A stretch of DNA of 64,000 nucleotides from Streptomyces zaomyceticus (GTDB lineage: Bacteria > Actinomycetota > Actinomycetes > Streptomycetales > Streptomycetaceae): positions 372,001 to 436,000 of the forward strand of contig NZ_BNBZ01000002.1 of NCBI RefSeq assembly GCF_014656215.1, read 5' to 3'. This document shows, one piece after another, positions 1 to 9,370 of this stretch. The position numbers and the translations under genes were made by a program. Each line of letters starts with the position of its first letter. Within the stretch, counting starts at the first letter, position 1. Under the pieces are notes generated by a model. The model did not search any database, was not told where the DNA came from, and was given only the letters and a program-made list of their open reading frames with translations.

Positions 1-2182
1 GGGCGGTGGTGAGGAAGGCGCTCGTGGCATCCCCGTCGGCCGCGGCACGCTCCAGCGCCTGCGGGGAGGCGTCGCCGGCCGGCACCATCACGACGGTGCC
101 GCCGCCGAGCAGCGGCACCCACAGTTCGTACGTCGAGGCGTCGAAGGAGTGCGGCGAGTGGGCGAGCACCCGCGTGTGGCCGCCGTCCGCCGCCCAGCAG
201 GGATCGGCGGCGAGGGCGACGATGTTCCGGTGGGTCACCAGGACGCCCTTGGGACGCCCGGTGGAGCCGGAGGTGTACATCGCGTACGCGGCCTGCCCGC
301 CGTCGATGTCCGGCCGTCCGACCGCGTCCGGACCGGCGGCGATCGGATCGAGGGCGTCGGGACCGGCCCCGACCGGGTCGAGGTCGACGGATGCGGGGCC
401 GACCTGGTCGGTCTCCTCGGCCAGGAGCAGGACCGGCGGCCGCCCGTCCCGTGTACCGCCCGCGAGTTCCTCGGCCTTCTCCCTCGTGGACGCGTCCGCC
501 AGGAGCACGCGGGGCCCCGCCTCCTCCAGAATCGCGCGCTGCCGCTCGTCCGGGTTGCGCGGGTCCAGCGGAAGGTAGGCCGCCCCAGTCTTCAGCACGG
601 CGAGCAGGGCGACCACCAGATCGGCCGAGCGGTTCATGGCCACGGCGACCAGCCGCTCCGGCCCCGCGCCCGCGCGGCGCAGACGGCGGGCGAGGCGGTC
701 GGCCCGGGCGTCGAGCTCCGCGGAGGTGAGCCGGACGTCGCCGCAGACCACCGCGGTGCCGTCGGGAGCGGCGGCGGCGCGTCGCCGGAACAGCGCCGGT
801 ACGGAATCGGCCGGGAGCGCCGTCTCCCGGCCGTTCCACGTCTCCAGCGTCGTGCGGCGCTCGGCGGGGGAGAGGAGCTCCAGCCGTCCTGTGCGCCGCT
901 CGGGCGCGGCGACCGCCTGCGCCAGGAACGCGGTGAAGCGGCGGGCCAGACGCTCGGCGGTGTCGTGGTCGAAGAGGTCGCGGGCGTAGACCAGGGTGCC
1001 GTCCAGTCCCCCGTCGGTCTCCGTGATGTCGAGGAGCAGGTCGAAGGCGATCGTCCGGTGGGGGCCGTGGCGGAGCAGCCGGGTGTCGAGGCGGGGGAGG
1101 CGCACGGTGGCGCCCGCGTTGTTCTGCAGGCTCAGCATGACCTGGAAGAGCGGGTGCCGGGCCGCCGACCGTGCCGGGTTGACGGCCTCCACGACCTGCT
1201 CGAAGGGCACGTCCTGGTGGTCGAGCGCGGCCATGACGCCCGTCCGTGCCCGCTGGAGGAGTTCGTGGAAGTCGGGGTCGCCGGAGGTGTCGGTCCGGAC
1301 GACGACGGTGTTGACGAAGCAGCCGACGAGGTCGTCGAGGCCGACGTCGGTGCGGCCCGCGACGGGGCTGCCGACCAGGATGTCCGTGCCCGCACCGAGC
1401 CGTCCGAGGAACGCCGCGAGCGCGGCGTGGAGGACCGTGAACGTGCTGGCCCCGTGCCGGAGGGCGAGCCGGGTGAGGTCCCGGAAGCCGTCGGGCGGCA
1501 GATGGAAGGCAACGGTGCCGGCCCGGTGGGTGGCGGTGGCGGGGCGCGGCCGGTCGGTGGGCAGGGGAAGCTCGGCCGGCGCGTCGGCGAGGGCGCGCGT
1601 CCAGTGGGTCAGCTGCTCGGCGAAGAGACTGCCGGGGTCGTCGGGTGCGCCGAGCTCCTTGCGCTGCCACAGCGTGAAGTCCGCGTACTGGAAGGGGAGT
1701 TCGTCCCAGTGCGGTGGCCTTCCGCCGAGGCGCGCGGTGTAGGCGTGCGCGAGGTCGCGGAGGAACGGCGCGACGGACCAGCCGTCGAAGGCCATCTGGT
1801 GCACGGTGATCGCCAGCACATGGTCGTCCTCGGGGCCGACGGTGAGCAGGACGGCCCGCAGCGGGATCTCGCGCTCCAGGTCGAAGCGGTGCCCGGCCGC
1901 GTCGGCCACGGCTGCCTCCACGTCCGGTTCCCCGATCCGCCGTACGGGCAGTTCGACCGTCACCGTCTCCAGGATCCGCTGCCCGGGCACTCCGTCGGTG
2001 ACCGGGAAGACGGTGCGCAGACTCTCGTGGCGTGTCACCACGTCCCGCAGTGCTTCGCGCAGTGCCACCGCGTCCGGTCGGCCCGTCAGCCGGAGTGCCA
2101 TCGAGGCGTTGGGCGATTCGCCCAGGCGGTCCAACTCTCTCTGGAACCAGAACCGCAGCTGCGAAAACGACAGGGGGATCAC
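1..2182 (-). CDS. NRPS, N-terminal C-A part (3' end outside window)
   Basis: The minus-strand frame encodes a condensation domain (about residues 1-430) followed by an adenylation domain that runs off the window edge. A-domain cores are clear: YTSGSTGRPKG near residue 636, then the FDASTYELW core, which gives substrate-pocket residues D235, A236 and Y239 in GrsA numbering; the rest of the code is outside. The C-domain active site reads HQMAFDG (residues 128-134) instead of HHxxxDG, so the second, normally catalytic His is Gln129. The protein starts directly with the C domain (IPLSFSQLRFWFQ), so it should take an aminoacyl/peptidyl chain from an upstream module, probably the T domain of the synthetase at 3334-7587. 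GTG at 2182 was chosen because no other start is in frame and GAGAGG lies about 11 nt upstream. It follows the monooxygenase gene by 37 nt, so the genes are likely co-transcribed. Product unknown. Confidence 0.9.
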   Translation of the reverse strand, partial: MIPLSFSQLRFWFQRELDRLGESPNASMALRLTGRPDAVALREALRDVVTRHESLRTVFPVTDGVPGQRILETVTVELPVRRIGEPDVEAAVADAAGHRFDLEREIPLRAVLLTVGPEDDHVLAITVHQMAFDGWSVAPFLRDLAHAYTARLGGRPPHWDELPFQYADFTLWQRKELGAPDDPGSLFAEQLTHWTRALADAPAELPLPTDRPRPATATHRAGTVAFHLPPDGFRDLTRLALRHGASTFTVLHAALAAFLGRLGAGTDILVGSPVAGRTDVGLDDLVGCFVNTVVVRTDTSGDPDFHELLQRARTGVMAALDHQDVPFEQVVEAVNPARSAARHPLFQVMLSLQNNAGATVRLPRLDTRLLRHGPHRTIAFDLLLDITETDGGLDGTLVYARDLFDHDTAERLARRFTAFLAQAVAAPERRTGRLELLSPAERRTTLETWNGRETALPADSVPALFRRRAAAAPDGTAVVCGDVRLTSAELDARADRLARRLRRAGAGPERLVAVAMNRSADLVVALLAVLKTGAAYLPLDPRNPDERQRAILEEAGPRVLLADASTREKAEELAGGTRDGRPPVLLLAEETDQVGPASVDLDPVGAGPDALDPIAAGPDAVGRPDIDGGQAAYAMYTSGSTGRPKGVLVTHRNIVALAADPCWAADGGHTRVLAHSPHSFDASTYELWVPLLGGGTVVMVPAGDASPQALERAAADGDATSAFLTTA

Positions 2183-2219: not shown

Positions 2220-3269
2220 TCAGTTCGCTTCGCATGCCGCGCGGAGGACGTCCAGATGGCGCAGGCCGCCCAGTACGGTCTTGGTGTCGATCCCGAAGTC
2301 GATCAGGCAGGCGATCTCGTCGACGCCGACGGCGCGCAGCCGCTCGACCGTCGGCCTCGCGTCCTCCACCGTCCCGAACAGCCCTCGCTGCTCGACGTAG
2401 GTGTCGAGGGACTGGGCGACGAGGAAGTCGAGGTCCTCGTCCTCCAGCGCGTCGATGTCGAAGTCCGGGTCGAGGGCGCCGAACGAGCGGGCGAGGAGAT
2501 GGACCGAGCTCCTGAGGTAGGCGCGCAGCGGTTCTTCGACGGTGGCGCGCACCTCGTCCCGGTCGGCGCCGAGGAAGGTGTGCAGCATCAGGACGACATG
2601 CCCGTCCCAGCCGTCGTGCGCCTCGCGCGCCGCCCGCCGGTACTCCGTGATCTTCTCGGCGAGTTCGTCGACGTCCTGGTGCAGCAGATGGGTGAGGACT
2701 CCGGCGCGCGCCGCGGCCGCCGTACGGAAGGTGCCCGCGTCGCCGGCGCTGGTCACCCAGAGCGGCAGCTCCCGCTGTACCGGAGGCGGGAAGATCCGTA
2801 CGGTCGCCGGGGCGCCGTTGCCGTCCACGACCTCGTGGCCCTCCCCGCGCCAGAGCGCCCGGAGCCGCTCGACGCTGTCGGCCAGGACGCGTTTGCGGTC
2901 CGCGTACGGGACCCGGCCCAGCGCGAAGTCCACGGGGTGCCAGCCGGAGGCGAGGGACACCCCGGCCCGCCCGCCGGAGAGGTTGTCGACGACCGACCAT
3001 TCCTCGGCGATCCTCAGCGGATGGTGGAGGGGCGCGACGACGCTTCCGGCGCGGATGGCGACGGTGTTCGTGATCATCGCCAGGGCGGCGCCCACGACCG
3101 ACGGGTTCGGGTAGAGCCCGCCGAAGGGGTGGAAGTGCCGTTCGGGTGTCCACACCGCGCGGAATCCGTGCCGGTCGGCGAAACGGGCGCCCTCCAGCAG
3201 CAGTTCGTACCGTCCGGCGTCCCCGTCCGGTGTGCTGTCGTCGGCGAAGTAGAAGAGGCTGAAGTCCAT
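2220..3269 (-). CDS. Luciferase-like flavin monooxygenase of NRPS/PKS clusters
   Basis: The 349-aa protein is a stand-alone TIM-barrel of the bacterial luciferase-like family. The N-terminus MDFSLFYFADDS and the motifs VWTPERHFHPFGGLYPNP, RAGSVVAPLHHPLRIAEEW and VSLASGWHPVDF are typical of the MupA/Atu3671 subgroup found with or inside natural-product synthetases. Such enzymes use reduced FMN and O2 and are thought to oxidise carrier-bound intermediates; the exact reaction here cannot be read from sequence. It sits between two NRPS genes on the same strand (64 nt after the A*-A(MT)-T gene, 37 nt before the C-A gene), so a role on the T-bound residue is likely. The ATG at 3269 is preceded by AAGGA with 6 nt spacing. 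Confidence 0.88.
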   Translation of the reverse strand: MDFSLFYFADDSTPDGDAGRYELLLEGARFADRHGFRAVWTPERHFHPFGGLYPNPSVVGAALAMITNTVAIRAGSVVAPLHHPLRIAEEWSVVDNLSGGRAGVSLASGWHPVDFALGRVPYADRKRVLADSVERLRALWRGEGHEVVDGNGAPATVRIFPPPVQRELPLWVTSAGDAGTFRTAAAARAGVLTHLLHQDVDELAEKITEYRRAAREAHDGWDGHVVLMLHTFLGADRDEVRATVEEPLRAYLRSSVHLLARSFGALDPDFDIDALEDEDLDFLVAQSLDTYVEQRGLFGTVEDARPTVERLRAVGVDEIACLIDFGIDTKTVLGGLRHLDVLRAACEAN

Positions 3270-3333: not shown

Positions 3334-6300
3334 TCACCCGGGCCGGGGCATCCTCCGCAGTGCGGGCCTCGCCCTGCGGGCGCCCGTGAGCCGGGTGGCG
3401 AGTTCGGCCACCGTGGGCGCGTCGAACACCGTGCCCACCTGGAGCTCCACCCCCAGCTCGGCGCGGACGCGGCTCACCAGCCTGGTGACGAGGAGAGAAT
3501 GGCCGCCGAGCTCGAAGAAGTCGTCGTCGATGCCGACCGGGTGCGGCGCCTCCGCCCCGCCCGCCCCGAGAACCTCGGCGAACATCCGGCACAGCGCCGC
3601 CTCCTGAGGCGTCCGCGGTGGGCGGCCGGTCCCGCGCGGGGCGACTCGCGCGGCGGGCAGCGCCGCCCGGTCGAGCTTGCCGTGCGGGGTGAGCGGGAAC
3701 TCGTCGAGGACGACGATCGCGGACGGCATCATGTACGCGGGGAGGTACGCGGCCGCCCACGCCGTGACCTCCCTGACGAGTTCCGTGTCGTCGGACGCCG
3801 CGCCGGGCGCGTTGACATGGCGCTCGGGATCCGTCATCGGCCCGGTCCCGCTCTCCGCGGGGATGTCCCGCTCCCCGGCGGAGAACTCGGCGTCCACATG
3901 ATCGGGCCCCGCCTTCGCGGACCAGCGCACCACGACGCGGTACCCCAGCCGTTCGCCGAGCCGTACCAGCTCCTCCGGGTCCGGACCGGAGCCCGGCGCC
4001 CCGCCCGACAGACGCAGGTCCTCGGCGAGCCGGGCGTTCGGCACACCGGCGACCCGGACGGGCGAGGACTCCCGGGCGCGGTCCCGCAGGGCGTCGGCGA
4101 GGCCGTCGAGCGTGCGGACGTCCGCTCCCCAGAGCAGTTCCGTCACCGCACCGGCACGGGGTCGCGCACCGTCGGCGCGGCGCAGGACGACGTCGTAGCG
4201 GTAGCGGGTCAGTTCGTTGTGGTGGGTTCCCCGCTTCAGCCGTACGTCACAGCTCGCGAAGCGCGGCACGGAATCCTCGGACGCCACCGTCAGCGACCGG
4301 AAGAACTCCGGATCCACCAGCAGCTCGGGCTCCGTGGCCAGACGGTGCGCCACCGCCCGGCGATGCTCGGCGGTTCCCGGCGCGGTGCCCGCCGAGCGGG
4401 CCGCGACCGCCCCGTGGAAGGACTCCGCGAGGCCCAGGTGCCGGACGTCGCCGACGAACACGGAGCCATGGGGCCGCAGCGCGGCCGCCGCGAGCCCGAG
4501 GACCCGTTCCAGGTGGCGCCCACTGGGGAAGTACTGAACGACCGAGTTGAGGACGACCAGGTCGAAGTACCCGCGCGGGACGCCCTCGTGGTCGTCGGCC
4601 GGCCGGCTGTGCAGGACGACCCGCCCGGCCAGGTCCGGCCGCTCGTCCACTTGTCGCCGCAGCCGCTCGATCACCCGGGGCGAGAGATCGAGGCCCCAGT
4701 ACGTCTCCGCCTCGGGGGCGAGGCGCGAAAGCAACAGGCCGCTGCCCACCCCGAGTTCGAGGATCCGTCGGGGCCTCAGCGCGCGAATGCTCCGTACGGT
4801 CTCGTCGCGCCACTCCCGCAGCTGCTCCAGCGGCAGGGCGCTGCCGTCGTAGCCGCTGTTCCATCCGCTGAAGTCCTCGCCGAAGGCCGTCGTCGCATCG
4901 GCCCGCACGGAGTCGTGGACACGACGCCAGTCGGCCACCCGGTCGGGGTCGCTCCGGTGCCCGGTACTCGCCGAGGCGGTCGGCTCGCGGCGGACATGGG
5001 CGACGAGCCTCCGGTCTCCGTCCGGATCCTCGTGCACGGTCACCGCGGCGGCGGACACCCCGGGGTGAGCGGCGAGCCGCGCCTCGATCTCGCCCGGTTC
5101 GATCCGGTGCCCCCGCACCTTGACCTGGTCGTCCGCACGACCCGCGAACTCCAGTTCGCCCGAGGGGTTCCGGCGGGCCAGGTCGCCGGTGCGGTACATC
5201 CGCGTCCCGGCCGGACCGTAGGGGTCCGCGACGAAGCGCTGCGCCGTCAGTCCCGGCCGGCCGAGGTAGCCGCGGGCCAGCCCCGCCCCGGCGACGTACA
5301 GTTCGCCCACCACTCCGGCGGGCACCGGCCGCAGCGCGTCGTCGAGGACGTGGAGACGCGCGCCCCGGACCGCTCCGCCGATCGGCGGCGGGCCGGCGCT
5401 CTCCGAGAGCGGTCGGCTCATGGTGGCGCAGACCGTCGTCTCCGTCGGTCCGTACGCGTTGATCAGGGTCCGGCCGGGAGCCCAGCGCCGCTGTTGTTCC
5501 GTGTCCAGGGCCTCGCCGGCGGAGACCAGGACGCGGACGCCCGGGAGGGCGTCGGACGGCAGGACACGCAGCACCGACGGGGGCAACGTCGCGTGGGTGA
5601 CCCGCTGTTCGTCGACGAGACGGCACAGCCCCGGCCCCGGCAGCAGGTCGCGGGCGGGCGCCAGGACGAGCGCGGCCCCCGCGGACAGCGCCATGGCGAA
5701 CTCCCAGAAGAACGCGTCGAAGCCGGGGGAGGCGAACTGCAGGACCCGGCTGTCGGCGTCCACCGCGAGCGTGTCGCGCTGATGGGCGGCCAGCTCGGCG
5801 AGACCGGAGCGGGTGACGACCACGCCCTTGGGCAGGCCGGTGGACCCGGAGGTGTGGATGACGTACGCGGGCAGGCCGCTCTCGGCCCGGCGAGCGCCCG
5901 GCGGCGGGCCGGACGCCGGTGCGCGCCGCAGCGCCGCACCGGTCTCGGGATCGTCCAGGTCGACACGGGGTACCGAGGTGCCGGCCGGAAGGACCGTGCC
6001 GGAGTCCGCGAGGAGCAGTGCGGGAGCCGCGTCGCCCAGGACATGGGCGATGCGCCGCTCCGGGTAGCCGGGGTCCACCGGAAGGTGGACGGCCCCGCTC
6101 TTCAGTACCGCCAGGACCGCGACGACCAGCTCCACCGAGCGGTCGAGCGCCGAGGCGACCACCGTCTCGGGCCCGGCGCCCCGCGCGGCCAGCACATGGG
6201 CCAGCCGGTTGGCGCGCGCGTCGAGCTCCCCGTAGGAGACCGTGTCCTTCCCGAACACCAGGGCCGTGGCGTCCGGGGCGGCTCCGACGCGCTCCTCGAA

Positions 6301-7587
6301 GAGGTCGAGCAGTGGCCGCGCCGGGGCCTGCGCGGCGTCGAGCGACGCGATCCGGTCCACCCGGCCGAGAGGGGCCAACCGCCCGCCGGGGAGCCGGCGG
6401 ACCCGGTCGCCGGTGCGGTACATCCGGTTGCCGGCCGGACCGTGGGGGTCGGCGACGAAGCGCTCGGCGGTCGGCCCGGGGCGGCCCGTGTAACCGAGGG
6501 CCACACCGTCGCCCGCGAGGTACAGGTCCCCCGGCTCGCCCTCGGCCACCGGCCGCAGCGCGCCGTCGAGGACATGCGCGCGCACCGCCGGAAGCGGAGA
6601 CCCGATCAGGGGTACGGAACCGGTGATCGGCGCGGCGAGGGACCCGGCCGCGCACTCCGTCGGACCGTACAGAACGGCGGCGTCCACCCGCCCCCGCTCG
6701 ACGCTCCGGGAGAGGTCCGCCCAGAGGGCCCGGGACACGGGCTCCGGGCCCAGGAAGAGCCGGAGCGGAGCGGTCTCCCGTCCTTCGGCCACCAGGTGGG
6801 GGCGCAGCAGCTCCCAGTGGGACGGGGTGCAGTCGAGGTCGGTGGCCCCGTACTCCTGGAGGAACCGGGCGAACAGCGCGGGGTCGGCGCGATGTTCGTC
6901 GCCCGGGAGGAGCAGGGTGTCGCCGCGGCAGACACGGGTCCACTGCCGGACCGAGACATCGAGGTCGAGGCCCGCGTTCCACACCACCCGCGCCGGCGAC
7001 GGGGGACCGCCACCGTCCGCCGCGGGAACACCGCGTCCCTCCCACGCGCGTACGAGATGGGCGGTGTTGAGGTGAGTGAGCGTCACCGCCCACGGAGCGC
7101 CGGAGTCGCCCGAGGCCTGGACGACCGCCGCCGCCCCGTACGGAACATCACCCGCCGGTACGGGTCCCGCGGCGGGTGCGCCCGGCCCGGTCAGGCCGAG
7201 GCCGGGGGCGAGAACGAGACGGCGCGTGCCCTTCGGCCACTCGGTGTCGTCCGGTCCCGTGGTGAGCACCAGACGTGCCCCGGCCTCCTCGGCGAGCCGA
7301 CGCCGTCGCCGTGCCGAACGGGCCGGATCGAGGGGCGCGTACGCCGCGCCGGCCCGCCACACCGCGAGCATCGCCGTCACCAGGTCGACACCGCGCGGAA
7401 GATCGAGGGCGACGGTCGTACCGGGCTCCGCGCCCGCCGCGCCCAGTACCCGGGCCGCCCGCTCGACCCGCTCGCCCAGTTCGCCGAACGTCACCGACTC
7501 CGAAGGCGCGACCACGGCGGCGCGCTCGGGGTGCCGGGTCGACTCCCGCCGAAAGCGTGTGAGGAGGTCGATCGCGCTGGTGACCAC
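3334..7587 (-). CDS. NRPS with degenerate A domain, MT-interrupted A domain and T domain (A*-A(MT)-T)
   Basis: The protein has 1417 aa. Residues 1 to about 420 form a first A domain without usable cores: the A3 loop reads [10 protein letters not shown] in place of TSGSTGxPKG, and the domain stops after A7/A8 ([10 protein letters not shown]) with no A10 lysine. Residues 430-905 are a second A domain with [11 protein letters not shown] (about 575), [12 protein letters not shown] and [12 protein letters not shown]. By eye its pocket code is D-A-W-T-V-A-A-V-C, close to the Phe code of GrsA. A methyltransferase domain (SAM motif [12 protein letters not shown] near 939) is inserted between A8 and A9. 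The A domain then resumes (LPAYMMPS, A10 [11 protein letters not shown]), followed by a T domain (LGGHSLL near 1360). No C or TE domain is present. Embedded MTs of this kind usually N-methylate the bound amino acid. The GTG start at 7587 has AAGGAG 6 nt upstream. It probably loads and methylates the residue passed to the next synthetase. Confidence 0.92.
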
Positions 7588-7680
7588 GGACAGCTCCTTG
7601 CGCAGGTGAGGGGGCGGTGCCGGTGGGGGTGACGCCGCCGGGACCGGTCGCGGTCGCGGCGCTCTCGGAGCGGGCCGTGG

Positions 7681-7899
7681 CTAGTGCGGTGCGGTGGCTG
7701 GAGCGGTGCGCGGGCCCGCCGGCCGCCCGCCGGGCCGGGCATGCTCCACCCGGTCCGCGCCCGCCGCCCGTGAGCCGGGTCCGGATGTCGCGGCCCACCT
7801 GGCCGGAATATCGAATTCCAGACGCCGGAGGGAGCGCCGGCCCCGGTCATTGGCAGGGGTCGGGAATTGGCCGGACCCATTCTCGAACGGATTGATCAT
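7681..7899 (-). CDS. Degenerate MbtH-like protein
   Basis: The 72-aa frame begins MINPFENGSGQF and continues with ...PAND.GRRSL....FDIPARW....GPGSRAAG.DRVEHA. This follows the MbtH family pattern (NPFEN..G.F.VLVN.E.QHSLWP...VP.GW....G...R..CL.YV...WTDMRP) along its whole length. MbtH proteins are small chaperones that bind NRPS adenylation domains. Here hallmark residues are lost: SLWP is SLRR, and the C-terminal WTDMRP is RPGGRP; both Trp-to-Arg changes fit TGG-to-CGG. It lies 93 nt upstream of the NRPS on the same strand, where mbtH genes often sit. The ATG has a GGGAGGG about 10 nt upstream. It may be non-functional or a divergent partner adapted to the odd A domains. The family call rests on pattern alone. 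Confidence 0.6.
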   Translation of the reverse strand: MINPFENGSGQFPTPANDRGRRSLRRLEFDIPARWAATSGPGSRAAGADRVEHARPGGRPAGPRTAPATAPH

Positions 7900-8089: not shown

Positions 8090-9370
8090 GTGCTGGAGTC
8101 CGCCACGCCAACTGCCGCGCAGTCCGCGACAGCACCCGGCCAACGCCCGCACCGGAACTTCCGGTTGCTGCTCATCGGCGAGACCACCAGCAAACTGGGC
8201 ACCAGTGTGACGTCCGTCCTGCTGCCGCTCGTCGCCGTCACCACCCTCCACGCCTCGCCCTTCATGATGGGCGTGCTCACCGCCGCGCCGTGGCTGCCGT
8301 GGCTGGTCGTCGGCCTGCCCGCCGGCGCCTGGGTCGACCGACTCGCACCGCGCCCGTTGATGCTCGTGTGCAACGCCGTCTCCGCGACGGTGCTCGCGAG
8401 CGTCCCGGTCACCTGGTGGCTGGGAACCCTGACCATGGCGCACCTGCTCGGGGCCGCCCTCGCCTCCGGCACCGCCGCCGTCTTCTTCTCCACCGCCTAC
8501 TCGGCCTACCTGCCCCGCCTGGTCGCCACCGACGACCTGATGACCCGCAACGCGCAGCTGCAGGCCGGCGACCAGGCCGCCAGGGTGGCGGGTCCCGGAC
8601 TCGGCGGGCTGACCGCCCAGACCCTCGGTGGAGTGCCGGGCCTGCTGCTCGACGCGGCGTCCTTCCTGGTGTCGTCGATCTGCCTCACGGCCATCCGCCC
8701 CGAAGGGCCCCGCCCCGCCCCGGCGCCCCGGCGGCGACTCAGCCGCGAGATGGCCGACGGCCTGCGCTTCGTCGTCGGCGATCCCTGGGTCCGGGCCGTC
8801 ACCGCCTTCGGCGCCGCGGTGAACCTGGCGATGGCGGGCTTCCAGGCCGTCCAGATCGTCTTCCTCGTGCGGACCGTCGGCGTCGGCTCCGACACGCTCG
8901 GGTGGCTCGTTTCCTGCGGAGGTCTCGGCGGGGTGCTCGGCGGCCTCGTGGCCGGCCGCCTCGCCCGGGGTCTGGGTACGGCGCGTGCGCTGCTCGTCAT
9001 CCAGTTCACCGCCTCGCCCTTCGGCCTGCTCGCCGCACTCGCCGGTCCCGGACCGCGGCTGGCGTTCTTCGTGCTCGGCACCTCGGTCATGCTCGCCGGG
9101 GTCGTGGCCTGCAACGTCATCCTCGTCAGCTTCCGGCAGACGTACTGCCCGGCGGAGCTGCTGGGGCGTGTCACCGCGACCACGCTGTTCCTCAACTTCA
9201 GCACCGTCCCGCTCGGCGCCCTCCTGGGCGGCTCCCTCGCCTCCCTCCTCGGCGCCCGGACCACGATGTGGGTGGTCACCGCCGCACTGCTGGCCGCCGG
9301 TGGCTTCCTGCTCGTGGGGCCGCTGCGCGGCCTCCGCGATCTGCCGGGTGCACCCGCCGCCGAGGACTGA
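8090..9370 (+). CDS. MFS exporter (DHA3/EntS-like, about 12 TM)
   Basis: The 426-aa integral membrane protein begins with a polar N-terminus (about 25 aa), then NFRLLLIGETTSKLGTSVTSVLLPL. This is the start expected of MFS_3/EntS-type exporters, and about 12 hydrophobic segments follow. The motif GLPAGAWVDRLAPRPLM matches the MFS loop 2-3 signature (G.xxDRxGRR type). It is transcribed away from the NRPS genes and probably exports their product. The GTG start is followed closely in frame by no better ATG; GGAGG at 8083-8087 is only 2 nt away, so the true start could lie slightly further downstream. The family is certain; the substrate is inferred from context. Confidence 0.85.
   Translation: MLESATPTAAQSATAPGQRPHRNFRLLLIGETTSKLGTSVTSVLLPLVAVTTLHASPFMMGVLTAAPWLPWLVVGLPAGAWVDRLAPRPLMLVCNAVSATVLASVPVTWWLGTLTMAHLLGAALASGTAAVFFSTAYSAYLPRLVATDDLMTRNAQLQAGDQAARVAGPGLGGLTAQTLGGVPGLLLDAASFLVSSICLTAIRPEGPRPAPAPRRRLSREMADGLRFVVGDPWVRAVTAFGAAVNLAMAGFQAVQIVFLVRTVGVGSDTLGWLVSCGGLGGVLGGLVAGRLARGLGTARALLVIQFTASPFGLLAALAGPGPRLAFFVLGTSVMLAGVVACNVILVSFRQTYCPAELLGRVTATTLFLNFSTVPLGALLGGSLASLLGARTTMWVVTAALLAAGGFLLVGPLRGLRDLPGAPAAED

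Follow-up and report, generated by a model that had tools for sequence, protein, structure and literature searches.

A probable mbtH pseudogene upstream of an NRPS gene in Streptomyces zaomyceticus and three relatives

The window analysed here, 64,000 nucleotides of the Streptomyces zaomyceticus genome, contains part of a nonribosomal peptide synthetase (NRPS) cluster in which a short mbtH-like frame, hereafter the relic, precedes NRPS1, a gene for an A*-A(MT)-T protein with an extra adenylation domain (A*) in front of a methyltransferase-interrupted one (Table 1). The relic ends 93 nt before the GTG start of NRPS1 on the same strand. Most core motifs can be recognised in NRPS1 A-MT-T, NRPS2 and NRPS3. 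Near the NRPS genes (L029 2174-10299; G000:C2:354174-362299) we also observed genes for a CysN-like protein, an LnmK-type acyltransferase/decarboxylase and a carrier protein, together with HisC-like aminotransferase, aldolase, acetaldehyde dehydrogenase and hydratase-like genes; a CysD partner of the CysN-like protein was looked at in the relative G019 only.

Table 1. Positions of the features discussed, in window coordinates unless another locus is named
Feature	Position	Strand	Description
mbtH relic	7681..7899	-	72 codons, ATG to TAG, open in the window; Pfam and PDB matches; broken copies in relatives
SxWP Trp site	7825..7827	-	CGG (Arg) in 4/4 genomes
PxGW Trp	7795..7797	-	TGG kept in 4/4 genomes
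WTDxRP Trp site	7735..7737	-	CGG (Arg) in window, G019 and TSRI0281; within a deletion in G166
NRPS1	3334-7587	-	1417 aa, GTG start, A*-A(MT)-T
AAGGAG, likely ribosome-binding site of NRPS1	7594..7599	-	sequence; kept in relatives
A* domain of NRPS1	6337..7587	-	decaying adenylation domain without C-terminal subdomain
A* residues 101-325 (A3-A5 core)	6613..7287	-	relaxed to neutral, dN/dS 0.39-1.15 over six pairs
A* residues 326-403 (A6-A7; PxxTA and Ala+5)	6379..6612	-	constrained, dN/dS 0.12-0.33 over six pairs
A(methyltransferase insert)-T part of NRPS1	3334..6336	-	core motifs present, purifying selection
MupA/Atu3671-family luciferase-like monooxygenase	2220..3269	-	dN/dS 0.25-0.29
Start of NRPS2 (C-A of C-A-T-C-A-T, continues outside window)	1..2182	-	HQMAFDG in first C domain
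Divergent MFS transporter	8090..9370	+	syntenic in three relatives
Short MbtH-like gene of relatives	L034 about 2077-2256; G041 C12:569590; G166 C2:260277	- (L034)	all three Trp

A preliminary description of this DNA, made from its letters alone, had recognised a 72-residue frame with the MbtH pattern upstream of an NRPS gene, and Pfam and PDB matches together with syntenic relics in other genomes bore this out. The profile search which it had proposed returned the MbtH family (PF03621) over model positions 1-52 of 53 with 25.1 bits (E 1.2e-5), just below the curated cut-off of 27 bits, so that the score asked of a functional MbtH is not reached. Among PDB sequences searched with phmmer, 10 distinct sequences match the relic up to E 10, the best being 2n6g (residues 2-69, ungapped, E 1.1e-6), followed by 2khr (residues 2-65, ungapped, E 1.3e-6); 5wmm_B, the MbtH partner of a methyltransferase-interrupted A domain, matches with E 5.7e-5. 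A search of the NCBIfam profiles gave no match up to E 10. The frame still begins with the NPFE motif. Shuffled versions of the relic remained open in 7315 of 20000 cases (37%), and the open frame alone is therefore no evidence of function. By codon position its GC content is 0.73/0.70/0.78, against about 0.7/0.5/0.9 in the neighbouring genes.

The preliminary description held that the tryptophans of the family had been lost, which is correct for two of the three hallmark residues: SLWP has become SLRR and WTDMRP has become RPGGRP, whereas the middle tryptophan (PxGW) is kept, and kept in all four genomes compared. Both new arginine codons are CGG, a single step from TGG, as had been proposed. 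All three tryptophans are present in the 25 other MbtH genes above the cut-off in the four genomes, a count in which 24 genes were found by a pattern requiring the first Trp (every locus matched) and one was read from the DNA. In line with parts of PMC6668435 and PMC7539972, where Trp losses spoil the binding of A domains, the protein, if made, would not be expected to bind an A domain.

Orthologous NRPS1 genes were found at three loci, in G019, in Streptomyces sp. TSRI0281 (G041) and in G166, and in this comparison of homologous clusters, of the kind suggested in the preliminary description, all three have an mbtH relic upstream; the outcome that it had named as fatal to its claim, namely neither an MbtH match nor a homologue upstream of related NRPS genes, did not occur. 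Full-length NRPS1 outside the window genome was seen in G019 only (82% identity; 41 genomes, among the matches listed). The A* query retrieved a single locus, that of TSRI0281, from the named-genome collection, a scan with two short peptides that finds close relatives only, and the A* part had matches in 10 of 101 genomes, with 76-78% identity in G019 and G041 and 47-52% in the other eight. The monooxygenase query added G166 (89% identity) among 199 genomes. A literature search under the strain name TSRI0281 found nothing. Monooxygenase loci in G066, G103 and G082 are 64-67% identical and are not orthologous NRPS1 loci. In the distant cluster of G082 (L077 11433-11624) an intact mbtH directly precedes the related monooxygenase gene, and G066 has a tblastn match at the same place; for G103, tblastn for MbtH in that place gave no match.

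The frame is open in the window only, and the lesions that break it differ among all three relatives: in G019 1 nt is missing near the beginning of the gene, in TSRI0281 2 nt are missing towards its end, and G166 has lost 1 nt and, in a further deletion, about 51 nt. The exact placing of these deletions depends on the alignment, and the indels are taken from public assemblies. At the column of the window's stop codon, G019 has CGG and TSRI0281 CAG. In G019 the shifted frame continues into NRPS1, with the MbtH sequence out of frame after residue 15, a run-on that we take as incidental. In the window relic itself the disabling changes are missense only. The broken relics nonetheless exceed the Pfam cut-off (54.3 bits in TSRI0281, 39.1 in G019, 32.6 in G166), and passing the cut-off is therefore no proof of function.

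Selection was estimated as dN/dS by the Nei-Gojobori method, with the relic read in the window's frame and compared with G019 and TSRI0281 only; G166 was left out, so much of its copy being deleted. The relic gave 1.53 (interval 0.84-3.74) against G019 and 1.58 (0.83-3.52) against TSRI0281, with 19/21/14 and 20/24/15 differences at codon positions 1/2/3, and its amino-acid identity is 51% and 47%, respectively, compared with 85% for NRPS1 A-MT-T. The syntenic intact mbtH that served as a control, 36 kb away, is 92% identical, shows 5/2/7 differences at codon positions 1/2/3 and has a dN/dS of 0.27, with wide intervals (0.07-1.03 and 0.06-1.05) that include 1. For the rest of the cluster, dN/dS is 0.32 for NRPS1 A-MT-T, 0.39 for NRPS2 and 0.29 for NRPS3 (the latter two against G019 only), and 0.28-0.30 for the MFS gene. 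Fisher tests separated the relic from A-MT-T in differences at codon positions 1+2 versus 3 (p 7e-5), and from the intact mbtH in nucleotide differences (54/216 versus 14/213, p 1e-7) and in amino-acid identity (p 9e-8). At the nucleotide level the relic (72-74% identity) falls below the flanking non-coding DNA (77-83%). No purifying selection on the relic was detected against G019 and TSRI0281, with intervals reaching down to 0.83, with which weak constraint would still be compatible. The codon-position pattern, a dN/dS interval including 1 and an identity not above the flanks agree with neutral evolution of an mbtH pseudogene, and the relic lacks the conserved frame under purifying selection expected of a functional MbtH, the frame being broken in three of three relatives. 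Within NRPS1, codons 1231-1320 (window 3628-3897), which lie between the methyltransferase insert and A10, gave a dN/dS of about 1.06-1.10 against both relatives and are probably a free linker.

The A* domain is itself decaying. Of the marks of an active A domain (an intact A3, the A10 lysine and a C-terminal subdomain) it fails the set, A3 being lost, and its A8-A10 part is complete in G166, partial in TSRI0281 and almost absent in G019 and the window, so that the decay is graded across the four genomes (L074 from 5248). The A* of G166 has GRIDR where the second A domain of NRPS1 has GKLDR. When A* is aligned for three genomes, the indels are 3, 12 and 18 nt long; that they stay in frame is expected, because A* is fused before an A domain with intact motifs, unlike the free-standing mbtH, which took frameshifts. 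Over six pairs the A3-A5 core has dN/dS values of 0.82, 0.77, 0.59, 1.15, 0.65 and 0.39, the last being the TSRI0281/G166 pair, which is not neutral; in the three-genome comparison the core gave 0.82 against G019 and 0.67 against TSRI0281. The A6-A7 segment (0.12, 0.16, 0.33, 0.33, 0.26 and 0.24) lies below the core in all six pairs. An exceptional constraint on A6-A7, suggested by the values of 0.12-0.16, was weakened once G166 was added, since the pairs with G166 give 0.24-0.33, like a working A domain. Counts of synonymous and non-synonymous differences separate the core from A6-A7 with p 6e-4 and 1e-3, values weakened by pairs that share the window sequence and by a boundary chosen after the alignment had been seen. 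Gene conversion as the source of A6-A7 conservation is not favoured, synonymous divergence there being normal (0.28-0.34 against G019 and TSRI0281). An AlphaFold model of A*+A has a mean pLDDT of 78 with parts of the A* core below 50, which says little because the other rows of the alignment apparently correspond to the second A domain, and Foldseek returned the A-domain fold only. Because A6-A7, with its MbtH-binding signature, is constrained while the active-site core is relaxed, one may speculate that the dead A* persists without catalysis, as a docking site or scaffold that recruits the MbtH of another cluster or braces the following A domain, but we regard this as rather improbable.

We interpret the relic, with a probability of about 0.93, as the pseudogene of an mbtH that once headed the NRPS operon, a reading that the preliminary description had already considered and that family homology combined with disabling changes supports. 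It is drawn from the separate lesions in three relatives and from the relic dN/dS of about 1.5 against two of them; against it speak the open frame of the window with its ATG and stop, the one Trp and the NPFE that are kept, the 25 bits, and the still higher Pfam scores of the relics in the relatives. Since the Trp-to-Arg change at SxWP is common to all four genomes, parsimony suggests that the gene was inactivated, or released from constraint, before the four lineages diverged, and it would have drifted since, the open frame in the window genome being a happenstance of that drift.

The local gene might have become dispensable through supply in trans, with intact MbtH-like proteins from elsewhere binding the A domains of the assembly line. 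Not counting the relics, the window genome has 4 intact MbtH genes above the Pfam cut-off, G019 has 8, G041 has 7 and G166 has 6. The best candidate would be the MbtH whose gene (G000:C2:343615 in the window genome) lies about 36 kb from the relic in each of the four genomes (36129, 35878, 36042 and 36024 nt), of which the copies in the relatives share 64-65 of 71 residues with that of the window genome. About 7 kb from the relic, the three relatives have a short MbtH-like gene, which is not among the MbtH matches of the window genome. MbtH-dependent A domains carry a PxxTA pocket with Ala or Pro five residues on, according to part of PMC7539972. The A domain of NRPS1 has both PxxTA and the Ala (residues 777-787); in the window PxxTA is also kept by NRPS2 A1 and A2, NRPS3 A has PxxSS, and the Ala is found in all five A domains. 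As the signature is kept in most of them, most A domains of the cluster would still seem capable of working with an MbtH protein. Given this signature in NRPS1 A and 4-8 intact MbtH genes per genome, we favour with moderate confidence that an intact paralogue does the job of the local MbtH, and consider this the likeliest reason why the gene could die.

If the relic is a pseudogene, it might instead have died because the NRPS became independent of MbtH or because the cluster was losing its function. The decay of A*, the PxxSS of NRPS3 A, the PxxTS of NRPS2 A1 in G019 and a change in the first C domain of the window's NRPS2 (HQMAFDG, with the Gln codon CAG at 1796-1798, for the HHIAFDG of three of three relatives) would all fit this. 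The second His of this motif is usually held to be catalytic, and its replacement may impair the assembly line in the window. However, HQ occurs in the window only (0/3 relatives) and is thus younger than the shared mbtH damage, NRPS1 A and both A domains of NRPS2 retain PxxTA alongside the Ala in all five domains, and dN/dS is 0.25-0.39 in the cluster genes tested apart from the relic, so we judge such a cause less likely than supply in trans.

The DNA could also be kept for a role other than protein coding, for instance as leader or regulatory DNA separating the MFS and NRPS1 genes: it stays between these divergent genes in four genomes and is probably transcribed as a leader. An identity below that of the flanking non-coding DNA and the loss of about 51 nt of the stretch in G166 make this very improbable; a scan for sigma-70 promoters and terminators was negative, a result of little weight in Streptomyces. 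Even less credit is due to the alternative in the preliminary description, a divergent but working partner of the A*-A(MT) protein that binds without two of the three tryptophans. The open frame, the homology over nearly the whole length and the position next to an unusual NRPS would suit such a partner, and WTDxRP is likewise missing from the fused MLP of ObiF1 (parts of PMC6668435), but the frame is broken in all three relatives that keep the NRPS, the relic has diverged to 47-51% identity where NRPS1 A-MT-T has 85%, and its dN/dS is about 1.5, with no purifying selection seen; on the relatives' frames and these ratios we reject it. A chance likeness of a GC-rich open frame, with which the missing NCBIfam match and the sub-threshold Pfam score would agree, is rejected as practically negligible, since by its ungapped matches to MbtH structures and by syntenic relics above the cut-off the relic is beyond chance.

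The locus thus appears to record a natural loss of mbtH, advanced to differing degrees in four Streptomyces genomes, from an NRPS cluster that is otherwise largely maintained. In the order G166, TSRI0281, G019 and the window, these genomes also form a graded series of A-domain decay. In practical terms, a cluster that lacks an intact mbtH may still depend on one encoded at another locus, e.g., in heterologous expression. A small literature search, including part of PMC3849588, met with no description of mbtH pseudogenes. The relic is like the MbtH family (PF03621) in its ungapped, near-full-length homology, its size, its NPFE start and its location just ahead of an NRPS gene, and differs in lacking two of three hallmark Trp, in scoring below the cut-off, in showing no sign of purifying selection and in having its frame broken in relatives. 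We regard it as an ordinary dead gene, the work of which probably falls to intact copies at other sites of the genome. In the 5wmm structure, which represents the interrupted A domain of TioS with its MbtH-like partner TioT (parts of PMC7593251), chain 5wmm_A is matched without a break by NRPS1 A-MT-T (query 14-896), methyltransferase insert included, and the partner chain 5wmm_B by the relic, whereas here the partner is decayed and NRPS1 has an additional, decaying A* in front. Cross-talk is described, in parts of PMC7593251 and PMC3537567, for TxtH of Streptomyces scabiei and GplH of Mycobacterium smegmatis, where another MbtH can substitute for the local protein, sometimes only upon overexpression. 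Those systems resemble the present one in that the genomes have several MbtH genes, but there the deletions were engineered, whereas the loss described here would be their natural counterpart, common to four genomes.
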